Source: Desulfobacterales bacterium (GTDB lineage Bacteria > Desulfobacterota > Desulfobacteria > Desulfobacterales > C00003060). Taken from it: DNA of 45,520 nt. The notes beneath the pieces were generated by a model. The model was not told the DNA's origin and did no database searches. It saw only the letters and a program-made list of their open reading frames with translations. The stretch spans positions 1-45,520 of the forward strand of contig JABXJX010000008.1 in NCBI GenBank assembly GCA_013375375.1, given 5' to 3'. How positions within the stretch are numbered: the first letter of the stretch is position 1; the number at the start of each line of letters is the position of its first letter. The position numbers and the translations under genes were made by a program. Below are positions 2,262 to 26,982 of this stretch, in pieces.

Positions 2262-2370
2262 TAACCATTAAGTGTAAAGAACTAATTCAATGATATTAGC
2301 TATTCTTGAGTTAAACTTTGATTTATTTCATATGATGATATATCATAATCATTTATGAAAAAGCAATAAG
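2262..2370 (-). other. Integron head: attI-like core and cassette leader, with the first codons of a truncated divergent intI
   Basis: Plus strand cataaccattaagtgtaaagaactaattcaatgatattagctat...gatatatcataatcatttatgaaaaagcaa is closely similar to 25110-25215. The minus strand has a TTTACACTTAATGGTTATG core, and the plus strand has ATG AAA AAG CAA TAA at 2355. Confidence 0.6.
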
Positions 2371-2386
2371 TGGGCCTGGGGGGCCT

Positions 2387-3984: not shown

Positions 3985-4077
3985 TGCGTTGAGGGGCAAA
4001 CTTGCCAAAAGGTAGGGACGCAAAGCTTCCGGCCTAAGTTCCGATTTATCGGAATAAGGCAGCGGGGTTGCAAGACG
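3985..4077 (+). ncRNA. Cyclic di-GMP-I riboswitch (GEMM cis-regulatory element)
   Basis: gaggGGCAAACttgccaaaaggtaGGGACGCAAAGCttCCGGCCTAAgttccgatttatcggaataaggcAGCGGGGTTgc matches the GEMM-I conserved core. The stems CUUGCC-AAAA-GGUAGG and UUCCGAU-uu-AUCGGAA both fold. Confidence 0.92.
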
Positions 4078-4086
4078 AAGACAAGC

Positions 4087-4125
4087 AAAAGCCCGCTTTT
4101 GCCTTTCCGGAGCGGGCTTTTATTT
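4087..4125 (+). terminator. Intrinsic terminator, likely the riboswitch expression platform
   Basis: AAAAGCCCGCT (4087-4097) / AGCGGGCTTTT (4111-4121) followed by ATTT, between the GEMM aptamer and the start codon. Confidence 0.8.
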
Positions 4126-4142
4126 CCCAGTGGAGGTGCATG

Positions 4143-5417
4143 ATGCAAATTACCGGCTCCTACAATAATTACGTGAACATGACGAATCTTCTCGCACCAT
4201 TAGGAGCAAGGGGTTCGGCAGATTTAGTCATGCAGGTCTTTTCGTCTGCTGTGGGGAATCTCCAAGACAAGATCAACCAGCAAATATTCTCTGAGGAGTC
4301 TGATGCCGCCATTAAAGAACTTTACAATGAAGTTTCGGATCTGGCCGGCCGGGCTGAAAAATTGACACTAACTTATTTTAATTCCGTCTTTTTTGACCGC
4401 ACACCTACATCCTCGGACTCCAACGTATTGACTGCTACGGCAGTCGACGCCTTTTCTCTCGATTCCGGAGCGGCTGAGGCCACCTATAACATTTCGGTTA
4501 ACCAACTGGCGCTGGCCCAGGAAAACACAGGATTTGAGTTAAATGCAGCCGATCCGAGCGTGGTTAATCCGGGAATCAATACATTCAACATTAACATCAA
4601 CGGCCAGGACCATGAACTCGGCATTGATGTGGTGGATGGTGATACCAACGAGGTCGTACTCCAAAAAATAGTGGCGGCCATCAATGATGCCGGTTTAGGG
4701 GTGACCGGGGAGGTAACTGCCGGCAGTTTAGAGGGGACTCAACAGTTGGTCATCACGGCTGATCAAACAGGCACGGCCGGTTCTTTCACCCTGTCAGACG
4801 TATCTGGTAATGCGGTGACCGTGACAGGCACTGCTACCGTGTCAACTGTAGCTCAAGATGCTGCATATACGGTTGATGGAACCGGCTATACATCTGAAAC
4901 TAATACCATCTATCTGGATAGCGGACTCGTTACAGTCAATCTAAAAGGAGCGGGGGAATCGATCTTGACGGTGGCCCCGGATCAGAACGAGGTCGAAAAC
5001 GCCATAACCGCCTTTGTTTCAGCAGTGAATTCCATTATAGATTTTCTGGAAACCAATTGTGACTACATCGAGGACGAGGTTCTGTCGTCCGTGAATTCTT
5101 TTGTCACCGAGCACAAGAGCGAACTGGAGTCTTTCGGTGTCACCATAGAAGAAGATGGAAAGCTTGTGGTAGATACCTACAATCTGGCTACGGCCGTGAA
5201 CGACGACCTTTCAGGTATTAAAGACGCTTTTGCCGGGTTCGACGGATTGGCCGTACAGGTCAAAAACTATACCGCCCGCATATCGACCGACTCTCCTCTC
5301 AATTATGCCAAGGAAGCCGAGGGTATGAGTAAGGATTTCGTTGATTACCTCTACGGTACTTCAGCGACGATGCTGGAAAAAATCCTCCAGGGGATGCTAC
5401 TCGATACCTTTGTGTAA
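4143..5417 (+). CDS. FliD-like flagellar hook-associated/cap protein
   Basis: YNISVNQLALAQENTGF (FliD N-like) and LQKIVAAINDAGLGVTGEVTAG...LVITADQTG (flagellin hook IN-like). GGAGG at 4132-4136 places the start at 4140/4143, not 4068; the first 24 track residues translate the terminator. Confidence 0.7.
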   Translation: MQITGSYNNYVNMTNLLAPLGARGSADLVMQVFSSAVGNLQDKINQQIFSEESDAAIKELYNEVSDLAGRAEKLTLTYFNSVFFDRTPTSSDSNVLTATAVDAFSLDSGAAEATYNISVNQLALAQENTGFELNAADPSVVNPGINTFNININGQDHELGIDVVDGDTNEVVLQKIVAAINDAGLGVTGEVTAGSLEGTQQLVITADQTGTAGSFTLSDVSGNAVTVTGTATVSTVAQDAAYTVDGTGYTSETNTIYLDSGLVTVNLKGAGESILTVAPDQNEVENAITAFVSAVNSIIDFLETNCDYIEDEVLSSVNSFVTEHKSELESFGVTIEEDGKLVVDTYNLATAVNDDLSGIKDAFAGFDGLAVQVKNYTARISTDSPLNYAKEAEGMSKDFVDYLYGTSATMLEKILQGMLLDTFV

Positions 5418-5442: not shown

Positions 5443-6207
5443 TTATAATTCAAAGACGGCCGTCACGGGAAAGTGATCTGAAGGATAGATCCCGTCCACC
5501 TGCCCTTGCAGTACCTCACACCCTCTAAGGCGGAGATTCCCCCTGTACAGGATCCAGTCGATGTAACCGCCGGCGGGCTTTCCGGTGAATCGATGTAGTG
5601 TGCCGGGGTACGGCATCTTAAAGGTTTCATTAAAATCCAAGCCGTTTTTTCCATCGACCTCTTTCCCCGTAAGCCATTGATAACAAAGGCTTACGGGTGT
5701 GGCGTTAAAATCGCCTGTTAGAATAGTTGGAATCTCATTGTCATATGCCGCCAATTGTTCTTTGATCACCCCTGCAGCCCCCATATGAGCGGGGGTCTCA
5801 AAATCAAAATGGGTGTCAATACAAATCAATGGTTGATTGTTGAGATGAAAAAGCCCGAGGGTAGCCTGTCTTGGATAACAGCTTCCAAAAGACCGGCTCG
5901 GGATATGGGGTGTTTGACTCAAGAAAAAGTGGAGATTATCATTACAAACAATCGTTTTTCTATAAAACAGAATATTGTCTTGCCAGAATTTAGGGGCAGG
6001 GCGCCGTCTCCCTATATAGCTATATTCAGATAGGTTCTCGGCCAGAAAATCGATCTGGAAAGGATTGGCTTCTTGTGTGGCAATAAAATCGGGGCTTTGT
6101 CTCTTTAAAACCTTCACCACACTTGCCTTGCGATAGTCCCACGCATTGGGACCATCATCAGCAAGACCAAACCGCAGATTAAGTGATAACACCGACACTC
6201 TCTTCAT
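5443..6207 (-). CDS. Endonuclease/exonuclease/phosphatase (EEP) family protein
   Basis: SLNLRFG, ATQEANPFQ, TGDFNATP and SDHFPVTA motifs. Likely start is MKRVSVLS at 6207; the upstream extension is repetitive. Confidence 0.85.
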   Translation of the reverse strand: MKRVSVLSLNLRFGLADDGPNAWDYRKASVVKVLKRQSPDFIATQEANPFQIDFLAENLSEYSYIGRRRPAPKFWQDNILFYRKTIVCNDNLHFFLSQTPHIPSRSFGSCYPRQATLGLFHLNNQPLICIDTHFDFETPAHMGAAGVIKEQLAAYDNEIPTILTGDFNATPVSLCYQWLTGKEVDGKNGLDFNETFKMPYPGTLHRFTGKPAGGYIDWILYRGNLRLRGCEVLQGQVDGIYPSDHFPVTAVFEL

Positions 6208-6297
6208 TATTCGGCCCAAGACATAGTGTTTGTTGTGTTTGCACCGTTTATTGTGTTTTAACCCAAGAAACCCAAGAAACACAACCAACTCAAAAAA

Positions 6298-6906
6298 CTA
6301 CTTAGCATAGAGTAAAGGGAGGTATTTTGTTACGTCCGAGTTTGTTGCTTTGAAGTTTTCAAATGTTATATCGCTGAAACCGAGGCCCTCTTCACGCTGA
6401 AGGATTTCAAAAATCTCCAGGTAATTCAGCAATACCCTTTCTTCCCACTTCAGGTCGAGTCGATCTGCTATATCGCGGATATGAGATTTTTGTCCCTCGA
6501 TCTCCAGAAATATGCCATACGGCATTGTGTCTATAAGGAGGTTCGTACTATTAAGAACAAATGTCTCCCGCCATTTCTCATAGGCCTGCTCCGGGTGAAA
6601 CCCCAGGCCTTTTAAAATGGAGTGGCAGATGTGAAAATCGTCCACTTCTACCTCCAACTCTCGGTGTATTTTAAATTGAGTATCAGGGTTGGGGAGGGTT
6701 GACTTAAAGGTTAGCAGGATTCGGTCATTTTTCCGGAGTCTTAATAGGATACCTTGTTTCTTGAGACTCTTTGATACATCTTCAAATCTGACATTGGTCT
6801 CAAATACTCTGCCACAGTGTGTGGCGCCCATAGCGAGTATGCTGTCTCGCAGTGGCTTGATTGCAGGAATGTGAAACTTCACCTCAATTTCGAGTGGATC
6901 GTGCAT
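6298..6906 (-). CDS. CYTH-domain protein (class IV adenylate cyclase/thiamine triphosphatase-like)
   Basis: EIEVKFHI at the N-terminus; LLRLRKND, ELEVEVDD, KWRETF, IDTMPYGIFLEIEG. Confidence 0.85.
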   Translation of the reverse strand: MHDPLEIEVKFHIPAIKPLRDSILAMGATHCGRVFETNVRFEDVSKSLKKQGILLRLRKNDRILLTFKSTLPNPDTQFKIHRELEVEVDDFHICHSILKGLGFHPEQAYEKWRETFVLNSTNLLIDTMPYGIFLEIEGQKSHIRDIADRLDLKWEERVLLNYLEIFEILQREEGLGFSDITFENFKATNSDVTKYLPLLYAK

Positions 6907-7074
6907 AACGTCTTGGAATTTCTATTTGCCTACGCTTGTCCGTCTCCCTCTAAGCTTTGCAACATATTGGAAATAGGGTAAAATGTCAAACAAAATAATT
7001 GCTACATCCGGAATAATACACAATTTATAACCGGCTCGGCATTATCAGAACCTGTTCGCTCATTATTTTTTTAC

Positions 7075-15991: not shown

Positions 15992-17764
15992 GTGTCGGTG
16001 TTTCGTGTCCGTGTCCGTAAGTCTTGTTCTTTCGGACACGGGAAATGGACGCGAAAGTTTCAATATACTATATCAAAAAACCGAAATCTTTTTCTGAAAG
16101 TGTATAAGGCACAAATTTCACACGAATATTTGTCTGGAAGACTCCAGTGGTTGATGTTTTTGCGACTCATATTTACCACTGTTCTTCTTGGCTCAAGTAT
16201 CCTGGTCCAATTCAAAGATCGTGACTCCCTCATCTCTCCACCCTTCCTGGTGCTGTATGGCCTGATTGCAACCGTCTACATCCTCACTGTTGTATACATT
16301 ATAGTCTTTAAACAACTCGGGCCGAGTCTCAGATTTGCCTATGTCCAAGTTGGGCTGGACACCCTGTTTGTCACTTTTCTGATCTATGTGACAGGCAGCA
16401 TTGCCAGCGTGTTCTCCTTCCTTTACTTGGTGGTTATTATTTACGCCAGTATTCTTCTTTACAAAAAGGGGAGCCTGTTTATAGCGACCCTGTGCAGCAT
16501 ACAGTATGGGGTCATGATAGATCTGGAATACTACGGGATTTTGAAGCCGTTTAATACTGTGGCCGGCCTGAGTATACAAGGATACGAGGAGCCCCATGTG
16601 CTTTACAAGGTCATTATGACTATGGTGGCCTGTTACTTAGTTGCCTTTTTGAGCAGTTCGCTTGCACAACAGACCCTCAGGACGGAGAAAGAGCTTAAGG
16701 CAAAACAAAAAGACCTGGAACAACTGGAGGCCATTAACGCCAGCATTGTATATAGTATGGATAGTGGGCTTCTTACATTGAACTCCGCCAATATAGTAAC
16801 CACATTTAACCGAGCAGCTGAAATGATAACCGGATTTAGTCGAGAAGAAGTACTGGGTAAACCTTTGTCAAACATATTCCCTGATGTGGTTCAGTTTGCG
16901 GCCTCATCAGGGGGGGGGCAAAAAAAAGCATACCGTTATGATGTAGAGTTTAAGAGAAAGGATGGGACAGTCGGCTACTTAGGTTTTTCAATGTCTTCAT
17001 TGAAAGAACCCGATGGAAAGCCTATAGGCAACTTGCTGATTTTTCAAGATTTAACTGCATTCAAAAACATGGAAGAGCATGTCAAAAGGGTTGAGAAGCT
17101 GGCCGCCATTGGAGAGATGGCCGCCGGCATTGCCCATGAAATAAAAAACCCCCTGGCCTCCATGAGCGGCTCGATTCAGCTGCTTAACAAAGAGGTCAAT
17201 ATTACCCCTGTTGCCGGGAAACTAATGGGTATCGTGCTGAGGGAAGCTGATCGGCTCAGCACCCTGGCTAATGACTTTCTCCTGTTTGCACGTCCCGGTT
17301 CTGGTAAAATGGAGTCTGTGGAGCTGAGTTCGGCCATTAGCGACACATTGGAACTTTTCAGAAAAAACGGCGTTTTCCAGAACAGGATTCCAGTGGTCCA
17401 GGATTTTACCACTGACGTGTGGACAGAGATGGACCCCAAGCATACGCGCCAGATCCTTTGGAACCTACTTTTGAATGCAGCTCAGGCTATTGATGGGACC
17501 GGAACCATACACGTCTCATTAAGGACAGTAGAAGATATGGTTCAAGTGACTGTGAGAGATGACGGCTGCGGCATGTCCGAAGAGACTATCAGCAGAATCT
17601 TTGATCCGTTTTTTACCACCAAGGCCCATGGAACAGGCCTGGGACTTTCTATTGTCCACAGGCTTCTGGAATCTTACAACGGGCGACTTGATGTTCAGAG
17701 TCAACAGGGCCAAGGGAGCACCTTCAACCTGTACCTTAAGAGAATAGCCCCACCGGACCTTTGA
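15992..17764 (+). CDS. PilS-like sensor histidine kinase (TM domain, PAS, HisKA, HATPase)
   Basis: [23 protein letters not shown]-box; [36 protein letters not shown]. The start is uncertain: GTG at 15992 lies in a repetitive GTGTCCGTGTCCG stretch. Confidence 0.88.
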
Positions 17765-17869
17765 CTTTTCAAGACCGGACCCCGTCTTTTCCGAGGTCTT
17801 CTCTCAGGTTTTAAGTGGTGCACTTGGAACTTGAATTCACCATGAATCTGCTGACGATCGGAGCTAATA

Positions 17870-19180
17870 ATGAAGAAATGGAAGCTTGCCTGGAACGCTG
17901 CCCTCACGATTTTTGCGGTTTTTGCCATAACGGTCATGGTGCCCATAACCGGCTGCACGAAGAAAGAAGAAGATGAGACGAGAACCGTAATTCGCTTTGT
18001 TACGTGGAAGCCCAATCAACCGGAGGTTTGGGAGGAAATTTTTCGACGTTTTGAGGCCGAACATCCTGACATTCGCGTTGTGCGGGAGGTGGGCCCCCAC
18101 TCGACTACCGCCTTTCATGACCTTCTGACGCAGAAGCTCAAAAACCGGAGCCCTGATGTGGATGTTTTTTTCATGGATGTCATATGGCCTCCTGAATTCG
18201 CCTCAGCCGGGTGGGCACTCCCACTTGACGAACGCTTCCCGCACTCGGAACAAGAAAAATTTTTGAGTGGCGCAATCCTCGCAAATTCCTACAAAGGGAG
18301 AATTTATGGTGTTCCCCTATTTGTCGGTAGCGGCATGCTTTATTACCGGAAGGACCTGCTGAAACGCTACGGCTTCACCCCGCCTGATACGTGGCAGGAG
18401 ATGGTCGAACAGGCATGGAAGATTGTGTCCGAAGAGGGAAAGCAGAGAGAACTTTACGGATTTTCCGGACAATTCAAACAGTATGAAGGTCTTGTCTGTG
18501 ATATGATGGAGTACATTCTTAGCAATCAGGGGAGCATCCTCAATCCAAAGACGGGAGGATCTGAAATTGCGAAACCGGCAGCAGTAGGGGCAGTCCGGTT
18601 TGTAAGAGATAGTATCATTGGAGCGATCGCCCCTAAGGGAGTACTCACCTATCAGGAGCCTGAATCGATCGCTCTTTTTATACAGGGCAAGGCAGTATTT
18701 CATAGGAACTGGCCTTATGCTTGGGAGATGTCAAACAATCCGAAGCGCTCTAAAATCGTTGGCAAGGTGGGCATTACAAAACTCCCTCATTTCCCTGGGG
18801 GCACAAGCCACGCTACACTGGGGGGATGGCAACTCGGAATCAGCAAGTATTCTCAAAACAAAAAAGCTGCGTGGACCTTTGTCCGGTTTCTGACAAGTAA
18901 GAAAATTCAAAAATGCCTCGCATTGAAGGCAGGGCTCGCGCCAACCAGAAAAGCGCTCTATGAGGACCACGAAATCATAAAGGCCCATCCTCAGTTTTGG
19001 GACATGAAGGAGGTCTTTTTAACCGCCTATCCTCGTCCGAGAACCCCACTTTATCCGGCACTATCCAATGTCTTACAGCACTACTTCCACAAGGTCATAT
19101 CAGATCCGAATTCGGATATCGAAAAAGAAGCGTTTGCTGCTTCACAGGAAATCGACAGGATTCTTCAGTTGGCCCAATAG
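17870..19180 (+). CDS. ABC transporter extracellular solute-binding protein, family 1 (lipoprotein)
   Basis: Signal with ITGC lipobox; VIRFVTWKPNQPEVWEEIFRRFEAEHPDI; SBP-like organisation followed by permeases and an ATPase. Confidence 0.9.
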   Translation: MKKWKLAWNAALTIFAVFAITVMVPITGCTKKEEDETRTVIRFVTWKPNQPEVWEEIFRRFEAEHPDIRVVREVGPHSTTAFHDLLTQKLKNRSPDVDVFFMDVIWPPEFASAGWALPLDERFPHSEQEKFLSGAILANSYKGRIYGVPLFVGSGMLYYRKDLLKRYGFTPPDTWQEMVEQAWKIVSEEGKQRELYGFSGQFKQYEGLVCDMMEYILSNQGSILNPKTGGSEIAKPAAVGAVRFVRDSIIGAIAPKGVLTYQEPESIALFIQGKAVFHRNWPYAWEMSNNPKRSKIVGKVGITKLPHFPGGTSHATLGGWQLGISKYSQNKKAAWTFVRFLTSKKIQKCLALKAGLAPTRKALYEDHEIIKAHPQFWDMKEVFLTAYPRPRTPLYPALSNVLQHYFHKVISDPNSDIEKEAFAASQEIDRILQLAQ

Positions 19181-19204
19181 GGCCAATTTCCGCGGCGTGC
19201 AGGT

Positions 19205-20113
19205 ATGAAAAGGAGACATTCATCTATTACAAAAGAGAGAATATTTGCCGTATGGTTACTCATACCATGCTTTCTCGTTGTCTGCATTTTTGCCTTTTAT
19301 CCCATAGTCTATTCTTTCTTCCTCAGCCTGCACAGGATAATACTCGGACTTCCTTCTATTGGCCAACCATTCATCGGGCTCGAAAACTACCGAGCACTAT
19401 TACATGATAGCATCGCACTCCGTTCACTCGTCAATACCTTCGCCTTTGTCTTTATCTCCACATTCTTTGAACTGCTCTTCGGACTTATTATTGCTCTCGT
19501 AATCAACAAGCACTTTATGGGAAGAGGGTTGGTGAGAGCAGCAATCCTCGTGCCATGGGCGATTCCTACGGTTGTCTCATCACAAATGTGGAGGTTTATA
19601 TGTAACGACAACTATGGCCTTGTGAACTATATCTTGTTTGGTTCGGATGTTGCACAGTACAAGGCGTGGCTTGCTGACCCTTTTTTTGCCTTTGCCGCCA
19701 TAGTGGTTGCCGATGTATGGAAAACTTCCTCCTTTGCGGCGCTCCTGATTCTGGCAGGCCTCCAGACTATCCCGGATGAACTCTATGAAACAGCGAAAAT
19801 AGATGGCGCCAATGCATGGCAGCGATTTAGAAAGATAATACTCCCCCTTATCAAACCTGCGTTACTCATTGCGCTGCTGTTCAGGACCATGGATGCCTTC
19901 AGGGTTTTTGACCTTGTCTTCGTCATGACACAGGGAGGACCTGCCAATTCGACGAATGTGCTTCAATTTTACGGGTACAAGAAGATATTTGCCGAGGGGT
20001 TCATGGGGTATGGGTCTACTATTTCCGTGCTGGTGTTTATGACAGTTTTTGTACTGTCATTGCTTTATCTACGGATTATAAGAACGAGACTCTTTGCTGA
20101 AACCGTAACATGA
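19205..20113 (+). CDS. Sugar ABC transporter permease (MalF/UgpA-like)
   Basis: ETAKIDGANAWQRFRKIILPLIKPALLIALLFRTMDAFRVFD (EAA loop). Confidence 0.93.
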   Translation: MKRRHSSITKERIFAVWLLIPCFLVVCIFAFYPIVYSFFLSLHRIILGLPSIGQPFIGLENYRALLHDSIALRSLVNTFAFVFISTFFELLFGLIIALVINKHFMGRGLVRAAILVPWAIPTVVSSQMWRFICNDNYGLVNYILFGSDVAQYKAWLADPFFAFAAIVVADVWKTSSFAALLILAGLQTIPDELYETAKIDGANAWQRFRKIILPLIKPALLIALLFRTMDAFRVFDLVFVMTQGGPANSTNVLQFYGYKKIFAEGFMGYGSTISVLVFMTVFVLSLLYLRIIRTRLFAETVT

Positions 20114-20122
20114 AAGATAGGG

Positions 20123-20941
20123 ATGAAACCATCTAAGCTACTTTTTTATGGAATAATATTTATCATCATCTTCTTAAGCCTCCTCCCCTTTATCTGGTTT
20201 GTCCATACCTCGCTCAAAACCGAGGGAGAGGTTACAGCGATTCCCCCGAAACTTGTCCCGTCAGGATCGCTCAATTTTTACCGCTCAGCCATCACAGACT
20301 ACAATTTGTTGCACTACGTAAGAAATAGTGTCATTGTCGCGGGGGCGACCACATGTGTCACTCTGTTTATATCCGTGTTTGCCGCCTACGCCCTTGCACG
20401 ACTGAGATTAAAATATAAGGGGTTGATTATGGGGAGTCTTTTGCTTGTATCCATGTTTCCACAGATATCAATCGCAGGACCCGTGTGGAAGATATTACAA
20501 GCCCTGGGATGGCTCAATAGTTATCAAGGGCTCATTATTCCCTACGTCACCCTCACCTTGCCGCTCGGTGTCTGGATATTGACCAGCTTTTTCAACGAAC
20601 TCCCCAAGGAGCTTGAAGATGCCGCACGGATTGATGGGTGTACGCGGATTCAGGCACTTTACAAGATCGTAATACCCCTTGCTGCGCCGGGTGTTTTCAC
20701 TGCCGCAATACTCGTTTTCATTTATGCATGGAATGAGTTCTTCTTTGCGCTCCTGATTATGACGCAACAGAAATTCCAGACACTTCCTATTGGAATTGCA
20801 TTGTTCCAAGGGCAGTATACCCTCCCATGGGGAGAGATCGCTGCTGCCTCTACAGTAGCTACCGTGCCACTTGTGGTTGTTGTTTTTCTCTTTCAAAAGA
20901 GAATTGTCAGCGGACTATCAGCGGGCGCAATAAAAGGATAA
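20123..20941 (+). CDS. Sugar ABC transporter permease (MalG-like)
   Basis: EDAARIDGCTRIQALYKIVIPLAAPGVFTAAILVFIYAWNEFFFAL. Confidence 0.93.
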   Translation: MKPSKLLFYGIIFIIIFLSLLPFIWFVHTSLKTEGEVTAIPPKLVPSGSLNFYRSAITDYNLLHYVRNSVIVAGATTCVTLFISVFAAYALARLRLKYKGLIMGSLLLVSMFPQISIAGPVWKILQALGWLNSYQGLIIPYVTLTLPLGVWILTSFFNELPKELEDAARIDGCTRIQALYKIVIPLAAPGVFTAAILVFIYAWNEFFFALLIMTQQKFQTLPIGIALFQGQYTLPWGEIAAASTVATVPLVVVVFLFQKRIVSGLSAGAIKG

Positions 20942-20943
20942 CT

Positions 20944-22023
20944 ATGGCAGGATTAACGATAAAGAACCTGAAGAAATCATTTGGCACCAACACAGTTATA
21001 CAGGATATCTCCTTTGACGTTTCCGATGGAGCGTTTTGTATCCTGCTCGGGCCATCAGGCTGTGGAAAGACTACCATACTTAGGATAATCGCAGGATTGG
21101 AAGAGCATGACGAGGGTGAAATATTCATGGGGAATAAAGAGGTGGGCAATCTTTCCCCAAAAGAGAGAGATGTTGCTATGGTTTTTCAGAGCTATGCCCT
21201 CTATCCTCACATGAATGTCTATGAAAACATGGCATTCTCACTAAAAGTTAGAAACCTGTCAAAGGATGAAATCGATAGCAAAGTCAGAGAGGCTGCACGG
21301 CTTTTGGACATAGAGGATTTCCTGGACAGGAAACCCAAGAAATTGTCAGGAGGTCAGAGGCAACGAGTTGCTATTGGGCGGGCAATCGTCAGAAGCCCTC
21401 AGCTTTTCCTTTTTGATGAGCCTCTCTCGAATCTCGATGCAAGGCTCCGCAGCACCATGAGGGTAGAACTCGCAAAACTTCATCAGCAATTAGGCACGAC
21501 CATAGTCTACGTTACCCATGACCAGATAGAGGCAATGACCCTGGGAGACAAAATCATATTATTGGATAAAGGCATCATCCAACAGGTGGGCACCCCACAA
21601 GAGTTATACGAGAGGCCATCAAATCTCTTTGTGGCAACCTTTATCGGCAGCCCGCAAATCAATCTCATTGAAGGAAGCCTATTGAGCAACGAAGGGAGAA
21701 TGTTCTTTAAGTCCGGTGGCCTTACTATTGATCTTGGTCCGAGGACCGTGTTGGAAAAGTATTCAGGCAATACGGTAATCTTGGGAATACGGCCGGAGTC
21801 GTTGACGCCAGGGAACGGCCCGATTGTTGGTTCACTGGAAATTATTGAGCATATCGGGTCGGAAAACATTCTGTATGTGGCAACCGATATTGGAAGAATT
21901 ATCGCCAAGGCACCGCCGGATTTTCAGGGGAGAGCCGGAGAGGGGATATCGCTTGCATTAAGAACGACCGATATCCATTTGTTTTATAAGGGAATCAGAA
22001 TCGCAGTTGGGGTTTTGTCTTGA
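20944..22023 (+). CDS. Sugar ABC transporter ATP-binding protein (UgpC/MsmX-like)
   Basis: GPSGCGKTTILRIIAGLE, LSGGQRQRVAIGRAIVRSPQLFLFDEPLSNLD. Start corrected to 20944. Confidence 0.95.
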   Translation: MAGLTIKNLKKSFGTNTVIQDISFDVSDGAFCILLGPSGCGKTTILRIIAGLEEHDEGEIFMGNKEVGNLSPKERDVAMVFQSYALYPHMNVYENMAFSLKVRNLSKDEIDSKVREAARLLDIEDFLDRKPKKLSGGQRQRVAIGRAIVRSPQLFLFDEPLSNLDARLRSTMRVELAKLHQQLGTTIVYVTHDQIEAMTLGDKIILLDKGIIQQVGTPQELYERPSNLFVATFIGSPQINLIEGSLLSNEGRMFFKSGGLTIDLGPRTVLEKYSGNTVILGIRPESLTPGNGPIVGSLEIIEHIGSENILYVATDIGRIIAKAPPDFQGRAGEGISLALRTTDIHLFYKGIRIAVGVLS

Positions 22024-22165
22024 CACCTTTTGGCAAAGACTTTTCAACGGGTCCCCAATCATCCAAGCTTTTCCATCGATGGCTTCAAAATTATATTTTA
22101 CACATAACGAGACTGTCGAAAAACTCTTTTCTTCGCTCCAATTGACCATTTTTGAATAAAGATTC

Positions 22166-22226
22166 GGGGTCAAACCTTGATTAGTGATTAGTAAAGAGCC
22201 TTAATCACAGATCAAGGTTTGACCCC
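22166..22226. repeat. GGGGTCAAACCTTG hairpin element H3
   Basis: ggggtcaaaccttgattagtgatta (22166-22190) / taatcacagatcaaggtttgacccc (22202-22226), 23 of 25 positions complementary. Confidence 0.9.
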
Positions 22227-22244
22227 AATAGTTCATAGTTCTCT

Positions 22245-22273
22245 TGCCACGTCCGGTGCAGCTACTCGTTAGG
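22245..22273 (-). other. Truncated attC (left half-site only)
   Basis: Minus strand CCCTAACGAGTAGCTGCACCGGACGTGGC overlaps the stop of the HNH cassette; no matching right arm before hairpin H3. Confidence 0.6.
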
Positions 22274-23021
22274 GCTTGCCCCTATAAATACTTTCATTGT
22301 GATACCTAATATGGTCATCACCAATTGTATGTCCGGTAACCATAGCAAGGTCAGTTGATTCTATACGGTAAACACCATAATCCAATTCGGCATGATGATT
22401 TGGACAGAGGCATAATATGTTCTCCATGACATCTGGGCCATTGTGTGGTTTGCCTAGCGGCCGAATATGGTGGGCCTCAGCGTAATTAGAGCTGTCGGGA
22501 AGAACCATGGTATACCCACAAAGCTGACATTTGTAGTGATGAAGTGCCTTCACTCTTCTGGACAGATTTGTGTCACGAATGATTCGATAGGTCGTGATCT
22601 CCTCGCGCTCTGCAGGCGCGTCTATATCAGAGGCTGTAGGCGCCTGTGGAATCGCTGAAAGTGGAAGATGGGGTGTCCAGTCATACTCTTTAGACAATCG
22701 GATTTGGTCTGTCCACCATGCAGTATCGTCTTCAGCTTTACCAAAGAGACCGAAATAGCCTGGCCCGGGTGTGCCCGTGCCAGTATCGATGATTATCCCG
22801 GTTATGGCCGGCTTCCCTTCAGCTTCAGTCCAGTCCGCAAGGGAACTCAGTCCATGTAGTTTTAGACTCCGGCCCCAGGTTCCACCGCGCAAGCTGAGCC
22901 CAAGTTCTTTATGGACGGCCCTATAGCCGACATAGGTATGATGGTCTCCTGGCTCAACGTTTTTCAAATGTTTCACCAGGAAGGATAGTAGGCGCTGACC
23001 TTCCTCGTCCAAGTCACTCAT
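22269..23021 (-). CDS. HNH endonuclease (integron cassette gene)
   Basis: CQLCGY...AEAHHIRPLGKPHNGPDVMENILCLCPNHHAELD is a Cys-flanked HNH. Start corrected to 23021 (MSDLDEEGQ); the extra 20 aa in the track translate the upstream attC. Confidence 0.85.
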   Translation of the reverse strand: MSDLDEEGQRLLSFLVKHLKNVEPGDHHTYVGYRAVHKELGLSLRGGTWGRSLKLHGLSSLADWTEAEGKPAITGIIIDTGTGTPGPGYFGLFGKAEDDTAWWTDQIRLSKEYDWTPHLPLSAIPQAPTASDIDAPAEREEITTYRIIRDTNLSRRVKALHHYKCQLCGYTMVLPDSSNYAEAHHIRPLGKPHNGPDVMENILCLCPNHHAELDYGVYRIESTDLAMVTGHTIGDDHIRYHNESIYRGKP

Positions 23022-23037
23022 TCGTATTCTCCAAGGC

Positions 23038-23107
23038 CCTAACGTATTTTTCACCGGCTGGTGTGGAGCGCAGTGGAACACCAGTCAGGTGCAAAAAATG
23101 GTTATGC
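23038..23107 (-). other. attC site
   Basis: Minus strand GCATAACCATTTTTTGCACCTGACTGGTGTTCCACTGCGCTCCACACCAGCCGGTGAAAAATACGTTAGG: canonical ends and CGCTCCAC centre. Confidence 0.93.
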
Positions 23108-24337
23108 CTTTTTTTCTATAGTTTTGTACCAGATGATAATACCCCACCTTTCTGGTTCATTTGTCATTAAGAAAATATGCGTCCCTATCAATTTAATTCG
23201 TTCTTCATGTACCGATTCTTTTTTGCCGTCGACATATACAACTGTTTTATATTTATATTCTTTCCCCTTTTTTATTTTTCCGAATCGTCTTTTTATGTCC
23301 TTAGTCGTATAGAACAAATATAATCTGTGGTCACTGTCATAATAATAGGAACAGCCACCTTCTGAATGTTTTGTTATGTTTATACCTGCTATAGTTTCAT
23401 TGTGCTGATATTCCTTATCAAGTTTCAGGGGGTACAACTGTCCCTTTTCTTGAGATTGCCACCGCAGTATTGTATTTGCACCAAAATTATAACAAAATAA
23501 AGCATCTTCTTTTTTCCAAGGTCTCTGCATTACAATGTTGCCATATGAATCTTCTGGGCGATATTTTGAAGGGATATGATCTAAATATTCTTTGAAACGT
23601 CTATAGTCGGTATTGTTAATTCCAAGATAAGTTAGCTCAAGCTCCTCTTTAATTGTTTGAAAGCCGTACATAGCAAAATCATCTTTTTCTTTTGAATACA
23701 CCAGGTTGGGGTAAAGAGCGGTTGATATATTTGAATGTTTGAGTTTCTGGAACAATTCATTTTCAAATGCGTTACGAGTAGAAACAATACTGTCTAACCA
23801 CTTCTTTGAATCAATTTTGTTTTCAGCATTTTTGAGATATTTTTTTGTGATCTTATCTTTAATGACTGATGATATTTTTAAATCATCTAATTTGAATCCA
23901 AAAATATTGACTAAAACTTTATTAAAAAATCTCTCGGTAATTTTGGCAAAACGATCTAGGTCGGCGTATGGTGCAACCGCACCATGCTGAACTAAATTTC
24001 TTGTTTGTCTCAAAAGTTTAATTTCTCCCAAATAAGGTAAACTGACACTTGCGAATTCTTTGAGAGCTTTATTGATAGATGCTGCAAGGTTTGCTAATTC
24101 AAAAGTGTCAAAATTTTTACCTGTTGTTGACTCCAAATCTAGGTGTGTAACGATACATCTCAATATGTATTCTATTGTGTTATCTAAGCCAAGAATTGCT
24201 ATCATATTGTCGAATTCTGTTTGCTGACTTGCATGTTCATGGGCATGGGAAAGCATCAACCGTGCTCTCATCAGCAGTTGCAGCGATTCTTCGTTTGGTG
24301 CAATGGGTAAGTTAATATTAGTTGTAGTTGTTATCAT
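23102..24337 (-). CDS. Cassette protein with HEPN-like N-terminal region (RNLVQH) and unknown C-terminal domain
   Basis: 411-aa ORF; helical N-terminal ~150 aa with LLRQTRNLVQHGA (RxxxxH). Stop TAA lies within the GCATAAC of the attC. Confidence 0.7.
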   Translation of the reverse strand: MITTTTNINLPIAPNEESLQLLMRARLMLSHAHEHASQQTEFDNMIAILGLDNTIEYILRCIVTHLDLESTTGKNFDTFELANLAASINKALKEFASVSLPYLGEIKLLRQTRNLVQHGAVAPYADLDRFAKITERFFNKVLVNIFGFKLDDLKISSVIKDKITKKYLKNAENKIDSKKWLDSIVSTRNAFENELFQKLKHSNISTALYPNLVYSKEKDDFAMYGFQTIKEELELTYLGINNTDYRRFKEYLDHIPSKYRPEDSYGNIVMQRPWKKEDALFCYNFGANTILRWQSQEKGQLYPLKLDKEYQHNETIAGINITKHSEGGCSYYYDSDHRLYLFYTTKDIKRRFGKIKKGKEYKYKTVVYVDGKKESVHEERIKLIGTHIFLMTNEPERWGIIIWYKTIEKKA

Positions 24338-24353
24338 TTTTAATTTTTTCAGG

Positions 24354-24428
24354 GCATAACGCTTCGCTTAAGAGGTTGGTCGTGGAGCGCAGCAGGATGA
24401 CCAATCCTTCTTCAAGCGGTTGTTATGC
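24354..24428 (-). other. attC site
   Basis: Minus strand GGCATAACAACCGCTTGAAGAAGGATTGGTCATCCTGCTGCGCTCCACGACCAACCTCTTAAGCGAAGCGTTATGC: canonical ends and palindrome. Confidence 0.95.
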
Positions 24429-25096
24429 CGACTTTTGTTTTGTATCCCATTCTTTGTATCGATCAACTAGGTCTTCTAGCAAGAGGCGCACTTGCGAAAA
24501 CGTTTCTTTTGCAAACTCTGAATCAATCAACAAATAATTGTAGTATGAAGAGATCCCTAAATTTCGTTTTTCCAAAGCCTTCATCTTTCTCTTGATTTTA
24601 TCATTCGCCATATCCAGCCTGCCATTTGCGTGGGCTATTGTATGACGAACGTCAGCAAGTATTTTTATTCGTTGCCAAGCATTGACATCGCTGCACAAGT
24701 CAAATTGAAGAAGATTTTTGTAATATTTCTTTGCTCTGTCAAGAAAGTCACCTCTAAGGTCATTGATGCCGATTCCCTGTTTTTGTGCCCGTTGAAGCAA
24801 ACGCGCTATTTCTATTACGCTTGTTTCGAGGACTGCATATAAAGACACAATAAAGGGGCCCCAAAAAAAACGAGGGAGGAGGACTCTAACTTTGCTATCG
24901 TATTCCTGCCGAGCTATATGCCATTCTGGATCTTCCGGCGTTAAACCTTCTTTTTTTCTATACTCATCAAGCGTTAATCTTTCTGAATTACTTAGATGTG
25001 TAATTTGTTTTTCTTTTCTATGATTTCATAATGATCTTCAAGGGCATGAAGCTCTAAAGATACATCAAGCAATCGAAAATCAAGATCTATCTTCAT
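24423..25096 (-). pseudogene. Frameshifted cassette gene for a HEPN-like protein (VRHTIAHANG)
   Basis: ATG at 25096 opens MKIDLDFRLLDVSLELHALEDHYEIIEKKNKLHI-stop. A shift near the A-rich run at ~25005-25015 restores QITHLSNSERLTLDEYRKKEGLTPEDPEWHIARQEYDSKVRVLLPRFFWGPFIVSLYAVLET..., in frame with the track ORF 24423-24848. Confidence 0.75.
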
Positions 25097-25104
25097 TTAT
25101 TTCC

Positions 25105-25203
25105 TTTGGCATAACAATTAAGTGTTAAGATTTTATTCAACGATATTAGCTATCGAAATATTATTTCTTGATATTTTTCTTTTACGAGATATCATAATAT
25201 TTA
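25105..25203 (-). other. attI-like site and cassette leader of integron remnant 2
   Basis: Minus strand CTTAACACTTAATTGTTATGCC core (inverted TAAC/GTTA boxes) immediately before the first cassette; no attC-type long palindrome; lies between the intI remnant and cassette 1, and is conserved with 2262-2370. Confidence 0.6.
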
Positions 25204-25318
25204 ATGAAAAATCAAGGATTTAATAATCACAAAAACCTCGCAAACTACTCGATCAGGTACGCGATGTCATGCGTTTGAAACACTATGCTTTTTTTACCGA
25301 GCGCACTTATCCCTTATG
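25204..25318 (+). pseudogene. intI: 5-prime remnant of an integron integrase gene
   Basis: ATG at 25204 reads MKNQGFNNH; after a one-base frame change it continues SQKPRKLLDQVRDVMRLKHYAFFTERTYPL, resembling the N-terminal SAM-like domain start of IntI proteins. The rest is lost. Confidence 0.75.
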
Positions 25319-25472
25319 TTGCATAAACAACCCGGCAAGAATGTGATAAAACCAAGGTGGTAAAGGGTTCCCTGAGTTTATCGACCGCTTGGGACAAACG
25401 CACACGTGGTCAATTCCAGAAACGTTATGATATTTGCCGAGTTGTTCACCCTTCGGGAAAGCCGATGATACC

Positions 25473-25546
25473 GCATCTGCTGCGTTGTCAAGGATTCGGC
25501 GTAAATTACTACAGCCTCACCCTTGACGCCTTGCATCTGCAGCATC
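25473..25546. repeat. Palindromic dispersed-repeat element (GCATCTGCTGCGTTG...GCCTTGCATCTGCAGC)
   Basis: Partly inverted ends ctgctgcgttgtcaag / cttgacgccttgcatctgcag; shares the CCTTGCATCTG-(C/G)AGC end with 44230-44381. Confidence 0.55.
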
Positions 25547-25727
25547 CTAAACTTTTGCAACGTTAGGGTTATATAGGCTGGATCAAACGGTTCATCCTTT
25601 TTCACGACAAAAAACATCCCAAGGAGATGGGGAATCAGGTGAGAATAGGAAAAATTGATATTTCCTTGACATAATGCTTCATTTTTGCTTAAATTATGGA
25701 AACAACAATTCCAATACGGAAGCAAAT

Positions 25728-26882
25728 ATGGATACAAAGATTCGTTTTTTCCAGGATGCGAAGCAGAGCTTTTTTCTGTTTGGCCCGCGAGGAACAGGAA
25801 AGTTCACATGGGTTAAACAGCATCTGGGGAATGCACTTATTATAGACCTTTTGGCACCGGAGGTATACCGGCCTTACTCAGCTAAGCCGGAGAGGCTACG
25901 GGAAGTTGCCGAGGCGCAAACTTCCGGCAACTGTATTGTAATAGATGAAATTCAGAAATTGCCTCAGCTCCTGGATGTGGTACATCAATTAATGGAACAG
26001 CGTGCAGGATGGCGTTTTGTATTAACAGGCTCCAGCGCAAGAAAGCTAAAGCGGTCGGGAGTGGATTTACTTGCAGGACGTGCTGTGGTTAAAACGATGC
26101 ATCCGTTTATGGCTGCCGAGCTGGGTGATGAGTTTTCCCTGGAAGGGGCCCTTGCTTTAGGCATGGTTCCCTTGGTTCTGGATGCAGTAAGTCCCAAAGA
26201 GGCGATTGACGCTTATATTGCCCTTTATCTCAGGGAAGAGGTTCAGATGGAAGGGCTTGTCCGCAATATGGGTAATTTCAGCCGGTTTTTGGAATCCGTT
26301 AGCTTTTCGCACGGAGCCGTTCTTAACATTTCAGATGTTGCTCGGGATTGCCAGGTAGAGCGCAAAACCGTAGAAGGCTATGTTTCAGTCCTCGAAGATT
26401 TGCTTTTGGCCTTCCGCATACCCGTTTTTACGAAACGCGCCAAGCGGCACTTATCGTCACATCCCAAATTTTACTATTTTGATGCCGGGGTTTTCAGGTC
26501 TGTACGTCCTGCAGGGCCACTTGATGCGCCTCAGGAAATTGACGGAGCAGCTTTAGAGGGGCTTGTCGCTCAGCATCTTCGCGCATGGAATTCTTATAGG
26601 GGAGATGCATACAAACTTTATTTCTGGCGCACAAAATCAGGGAATGAGGTTGACTTTGTAGTTTACGGACAGGATACGTTTTTCGCTATAGAAGTTAAAA
26701 ACACGGCAAAGATACACTCTAAAATGCTCAACGGATTACTCGCTTTTAGAGAAGATTACCCTGAAGCACAAACCTGTCTGCTGTATCGGGGCAAAGAGCG
26801 CATAAAAATAAAAAACATATTATGCCTGCCATGCAAAGAATTCTTAATGAACCTGGTACCTCAAAACCCGATTCGGTTATAA
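25728..26882 (+). CDS. DUF4143-type AAA ATPase with C-terminal PD-(D/E)xK-like region
   Basis: FLFGPRGTGKFTWVKQ, IVIDEIQKLPQLLDVVH, FVLTGSSARKLKR, LYLREEVQMEGLVRNMGNFSRFLE, FWRTKSGNEVDFVVYG...AIEVKNT. Start corrected to 25728. Confidence 0.88.
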   Translation: MDTKIRFFQDAKQSFFLFGPRGTGKFTWVKQHLGNALIIDLLAPEVYRPYSAKPERLREVAEAQTSGNCIVIDEIQKLPQLLDVVHQLMEQRAGWRFVLTGSSARKLKRSGVDLLAGRAVVKTMHPFMAAELGDEFSLEGALALGMVPLVLDAVSPKEAIDAYIALYLREEVQMEGLVRNMGNFSRFLESVSFSHGAVLNISDVARDCQVERKTVEGYVSVLEDLLLAFRIPVFTKRAKRHLSSHPKFYYFDAGVFRSVRPAGPLDAPQEIDGAALEGLVAQHLRAWNSYRGDAYKLYFWRTKSGNEVDFVVYGQDTFFAIEVKNTAKIHSKMLNGLLAFREDYPEAQTCLLYRGKERIKIKNILCLPCKEFLMNLVPQNPIRL

Positions 26883-26982
26883 TTCAAGAAAAGGAGGGAA
26901 GGCGAATAGACCCACCGCCCAGCCTTTTACCTTGACACCTATAGGCAAATACGTTAGCTCAATTGCAGATCGTGATAACATA

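Follow-up and report, generated by a model that had tools for sequence, protein, structure and literature searches.

The window analysed here is a 45,520-nucleotide stretch of a Desulfobacterales metagenome-assembled genome (GCA_013375375.1, contig JABXJX010000008.1). Its positions 22166-25640, which we call relic 1, contain an attI site, two attC sites, half of a third attC, three cassettes on the minus strand and some 50 intI codons, split over two fragments. The features of relic 1 and the island that encloses it are as follows:

17763-26903, no strand: island of 9.1 kb between a PilS-like kinase gene and lysS, comprising an ABC sugar transporter, relic 1 and an AAA_14/DUF4143 gene
22166-22226, no strand: REP-like palindrome GGGGTCAAACCTTGATT...AATCAAGGTTTGACCCC, an inverted repeat at which the distal attC of relic 1 ends
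22227-22275, minus: half attC of cassette 3, with its R'' arm GCCCTAAC at 22268-22275 and its R' side lost at the palindrome
22269-23018, minus: cassette 3 gene, intact, for a predicted 249-aa HNH endonuclease (PF13391 HNH_2, 1.1e-8)
23037-23109, minus: attC 2, between cassettes 2 and 3 (first covariance model E=0.47, rank 2; second model 0.12; fold z -3.4 on the bottom, i.e., plus, strand; R'' 8/8)
23102-24337, minus: cassette 2 gene, intact, 411 aa, of no family
24354-24430, minus: attC 1, between cassettes 1 and 2 (first model E=1.2e-5, rank 1; second model 2.9e-4; fold z -4.0 on the bottom strand)
24423 to about 25096, minus: cassette 1 gene, HEPN-like, frameshifted near 25020, a pseudogene or a shortened ORF
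25113-25205, minus: attI1, with the junction G^TTATGCC at 25115/25114, aligned with a second relic in the window and with three relatives (G045, G053 and G076)
25206-25310, plus: 5' remnant of intI, frameshifted near 25225, recognised from its translation and IntI similarity
25311-25568, no strand: MITE within intI, 258 bp, with the target site duplication (TSD) TTAT at 25307-25310 and 25569-25572
25569-25640, plus: second intI remnant YIGWIKRFILFHDKKHPKEMGNQ, truncated afterwards (PF13495, 2.2e-6)

We consider it very probable (about 0.93) that this segment is a decayed chromosomal integron, in which remnants of intI, the attI site, three cassettes and half of the distal attC have been preserved. 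The initial annotation had come to the same reading, and the sequence, an attC model and related attI-intI heads all support it. That account was nevertheless incomplete: neither the MITE that splits intI nor the second piece of the gene had been recognised, and both the island around relic 1 and a second relic had been overlooked.

The peptide KPRKLLDQVRDVMRLKHYAFFTERTY, encoded from 25233 on the plus strand, is a piece of IntI. It shares 88% identity over 26 aa with the intact IntI of the relative G076 (25233-25310; E=2.6e-7), which agrees with the IntI similarity previously proposed for 25190-25350, and a longer stretch of the relic gene matches the same protein at E=2.6e-9 (tblastn). The second piece, YIGWIKRFILFHDKKHPKEMGN (25570-25640), also matches IntI (E=2.7e-7) and exceeds the PF13495 cut-off of 27 with 28.4 bits; it continues the same gene as the piece starting at 25233. 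Both pieces are collinear and in the same orientation, with the MITE and its TSD between them. It had been estimated earlier that about 90% of intI was gone and that its start was frameshifted; the frameshift stands, but once the overlooked second piece is counted about 50 of about 320 codons are left, and the loss amounts to about 85%. Beyond 25640 intI is absent, and the AAA_14/DUF4143 gene comes next.

The 258-bp insert contains no ORF resembling a known protein. It is dispersed through the genus and the order, and its aligned copies share the ends CCCT.A.GTTGCA / TGCAACGTTAGGG. Each of four copies carries a 4-bp TSD of its own (TTAT in relic 1, and ATTT, GTAA and TAAA). Moreover, the same intI segment is uninterrupted in the relative G059, where query positions 157-311 and 570-632 abut with a 4-bp overlap that corresponds to the TSD. 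Being short and non-coding, with terminal inverted repeats (TIRs), a TSD of constant length and many copies, the insert is by all its sequence features a MITE. The right end of the element (about 130 bp) is spread through the order, which makes it probable that there are longer or chimeric relatives.

Rightwards from the AAC at 25113-25115, the sequence can be aligned with the region preceding intI in G076 (whose intI is intact), G053 and G045, and with window positions 2263-2375. The similarity ends exactly at the AAC/GTT junction, beyond which each head has a different first cassette; AAC/GTT is thus the recombination point. A promoter scan identified a promoter-like TTGATA-N16-TATCAT at 25168-25195 (plus strand) in attI1, and each of the two heads in the window has a sequence of the type TTGATA/T-N16-17-TATCAT at the corresponding position, pointing to intI. 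On the minus strand, where a candidate Pc for the cassettes was looked for, the same scan gave no promoter-like site in attI1 and one weak site in attI2. Among six related attI-intI heads, a set ascertained by similarity to a decayed head, intI is intact only in G076 and is broken in both relics of the window, G045, G053 and G059; the last of these keeps an intI piece, while its attI part aligns poorly.

It was the attI match that revealed a second integron relic at about 262-2455, roughly 20 kb from relic 1 in the same window. Its attI is homologous to that of relic 1, and it retains two cassettes, each with an attC:

262-340, no strand: palindrome of a second type, GGGGTCAAGTCTGCTCTTG..., seen in the sequence at the distal end of the relic
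349-421, minus: attC B (first model E=3.7, rank 5; off the second-model list; fold z -3.6 on the bottom strand; R'' 6/8)
405-1031, minus: cassette B gene, 208 aa, apparently a membrane protein
1040-1110, minus: attC A (first model E=1.7 for 1041-1110, rank 3; second model 0.75; R'' 8/8)
1149-2144, minus: cassette A gene, 331 aa, unknown
2263-2375, no strand: attI2 and the first intI codons, with the junction at 2265, the intI ATG at 2355 and a promoter-like sequence at 2318-2346 (plus)
2387-2455, no strand: REP-like palindrome, where the remaining intI of this relic breaks off

Since attI2 is closer to the attI of G045 (86% identity) than to attI1 (74%), we rejected a local duplication of one integron into two. 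The two heads also bear on whether the broken intI could be a chimera introduced during assembly rather than true decay. Such an artefact would be conceivable in a metagenome-assembled genome of 197 contigs, with repeats at several of the break points. However, the MITE is bounded by TIRs and a TSD of its own, as the other copies are, the break after about codon 47 is not at a recognised repeat, and two heads within one 45-kb contig, along with several in relatives, are broken in different ways. Hence, we regard a chimera as very improbable.

Because REP-like palindromes dominated a naive scan for R''/R' pairs, covariance models were built instead; the first was trained on 11 integron attCs, all from other genomes in the order, and the second on 23 attCs. 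An unfiltered search of the whole window with the first model returned six matches, four of them at predicted attCs and on the predicted strand. Only attC 1 is significant alone; attC 2, attC A and attC B are weak in this whole-window search (E 0.5-4). The two attC sites between the relic 1 cassettes, which had been described as excellent, are therefore both matched by the model, but only 24354-24430 deserves the adjective, 23037-23109 being weak. The plus (bottom) strands of the attCs fold better than shuffled sequences, with z from -3.4 to -4.0. The cassette arms offer a further test, independent of any model: if a cassette was once circular, its R'' arm must complement the first bases of the cassette itself. 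This match is 8/8 in four of the five cassettes of both relics, including all three of relic 1, and 6/8 in the fifth; in cassette 3, the 8/8 match of R'' to the cassette's own leading GTTAGGGC identifies the truncated attC. One might still suspect an accidental resemblance, produced by AT-rich sequence, ordinary palindromes and a stray recombinase-like peptide, as three of the four attC matches have E>0.1 when taken alone and REP-like palindromes do mimic R''/R' pairs in a naive scan. This explanation is refuted by the match of attC 1 to a model derived from other genomes, by the ordered and oriented IntI pieces with the MITE and TSD between them, and by the attI homology common to other heads; its probability is next to nil.

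The truncated distal attC of relic 1 had been noticed in the initial annotation, but the REP-like palindrome bordering it had not. Five strict copies of the palindrome family GGGGTCAAACCTTGA occur in the genome; the window contains two of them, one where relic 1 stops distally and the other at the intI end of the second relic. REP-like palindromes now border relic 1 where its distal part was lost, and the second relic on either side. They may have come in with the truncations rather than later. Two Y1_Tnp (RAYT-like) genes are located next to attCs on another contig of the assembly (C144; L101:3764-4735 and 6095-7057), and these may be the source of the REP-like palindromes bordering the relics.

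Regarding the cassette genes of relic 1, the product of cassette 1 matches the PADLOC family RTasHEPN (RT-associated HEPN) at 3.6e-7 and PF18735 at 6.9e-5, the latter under its cut-off. The 411-aa protein of cassette 2 has no Pfam or PADLOC match, and its AlphaFold model was of low confidence (mean pLDDT 42) and was not used. It contains RNLVQH, which we take to be an Rx4H motif as in HEPN proteins. A homologue with 58% identity occurs in Candidatus Electryonea with no convincing attCs adjoining, and a distant homologue in G092 is flanked by attCs. In the Candidatus Electryonea locus (L107:2479-5214), which is not part of a convincing attC array, a 442-aa protein of unknown function comes after the homologue. 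The HNH protein of cassette 3 resembles a phosphorothioate-DNA (PT-DNA) restriction endonuclease in its C-terminal part only (NF045808, 3e-14, under the cut-off). In plasmid records, the 411-aa protein had no homologue and the HNH protein only partial ones. The HEPN-like and HNH cassettes look like defence genes, and one could guess at a defence role.

The surroundings had been described as an otherwise housekeeping region, which does not take account of the second relic or of the 9.1-kb island around relic 1. In at least six relatives, including members of the same genus, the PilS-like kinase gene (15992-17764) is adjacent to lysS (27063), and in several of these the conserved order continues to rplM. 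Imperfect repeats of about 20 bp (GAATAGxCCCACC...CCTTT) lie on either side of the island, and in another genome (G001, L109) some 300 bp of unrelated DNA with the same kind of repeat is inserted at this point. The point between the kinase gene and lysS looks like a recurrent insertion site; within the island no recombinase gene for its insertion was recognised. Elsewhere in the window, a c-di-GMP-I riboswitch (70.5 bits) was found at 3985-4075, just before the ORF at 4068-5417.

The attC model also detected attCs on seven more contigs of the assembly (C195, C166, C187, C178, C141, C117 and C144), among housekeeping genes; there are 12 sites up to E=1 on these contigs, whose loci were searched separately. 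In the whole assembly (2.18 Mb, 197 contigs, 87% complete), no intI was found with TIGR02249 and an intact IntI as queries. This search for an intI that could act in trans recovered only genes of the XerC/D type, together with one phage-type integrase (C150) and one recombinase of the IS91 type (C165). A short contig (L002) carries the end of a tyrosine recombinase beside a transposase-like ORF, presumably an IS91-type arrangement. In the genus, attCs are present in most genomes and intI at E<=1e-60 in four, both counts being lower bounds given the stricter filters, the incomplete MAGs and the E-value cut-off. Two IntI proteins of the same genus (L016 and L030) are long forms of about 455-477 aa by open frame, which recall the long IntI clade described previously (PMC2426708).

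These data bear on whether the arrays are dead at all, given that an IntI from elsewhere, unassembled or on a plasmid, might act in trans and still shuffle the cassettes. The attI and attC cores are intact, the incompleteness of the assembly leaves room for an unassembled intI, and the four genomes of the genus do carry the gene. On the other hand, the 2.18 Mb searched yielded none, both arrays break off at palindromes, and the IntI of two genomes of the same genus (G005 and G007) is of the long form, differing from that of relic 1. Shuffling in trans is therefore distinctly unlikely, and we retain decay of both integrons as the preferred reading.

In comparison with a complete integron, the functional tyrosine recombinase is represented in relic 1 by fragments with a frameshift, split by the MITE and devoid of a catalytic domain. 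The attI site adjoins the intI start and is divergent from the cassettes, as the alignment of five attI heads shows, and the attCs have the R''/L''/L'/R' architecture and bottom-strand folding, one being strong and three weak by the model. Incomplete integrons may also take the form of In0, an integrase without cassettes; relic 1 is the opposite, as its cassettes are kept and the integrase is gone. Clusters of attC sites lacking an integron integrase are known as CALINs (IntegronFinder; PMC9024848). Relic 1 likewise has at least two attCs with cassettes (23037-23109 and 24354-24430) and no functional intI nearby, but it differs in that attI and about 50 intI codons remain attached, which makes its origin by decay directly readable. 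CALINs with a single attC can be real, and draft genomes inflate CALIN counts (PMC9024848). In an earlier survey nearly one third of intI genes were pseudogenes, disrupted by stop codons, frameshifts or major indels, and sedentary chromosomal integrons with such a gene were termed 'pseudo-integrons' (PMC2426708). Relic 1 is in the same state, with the difference that the lesion is resolved here to a MITE insertion with its TSD and that a second dead head lies 20 kb away on the same contig. Since integrase decay and CALINs are well documented, relic 1 is an unusually well-resolved case of a known kind. Among the titles covered by our literature search, none dealt with a MITE inserted into intI, although this says little about whether such a case has been described.

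Taken together, the anatomy of the two relics leads us to infer past integron activity. Two sedentary chromosomal integrons would formerly have worked here, each with attI beside a divergent intI, and IntI would have captured cassettes by recombining attI with the bottom strand of attC in its folded form. In relic 1, intI would have been inactivated by the frameshift, the insertion of the 258-bp MITE and the loss beyond about codon 47, in any order. The surviving cassettes (HEPN-like, unknown and HNH in relic 1, and two unknowns in the second relic) would now be fixed chromosomal genes. It is also conceivable, albeit rather doubtful, that attI heads and attC cassettes persist at many places on the chromosome in this lineage after the loss of intI, either as a dispersed reservoir for a regained or horizontally acquired IntI acting in trans, or because the attI head has a regulatory role for the fixed cassettes.

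It has been proposed that CALINs are integrons that lost their integrase, the head usually being gone; here, the intermediate can be read base by base. A single contig shows this state at two heads, and related genomes show it as well. Hence, the route from integron to fixed chromosomal genes, via MITE insertion, truncation next to REP-like palindromes and the stranding of cassettes, becomes testable.
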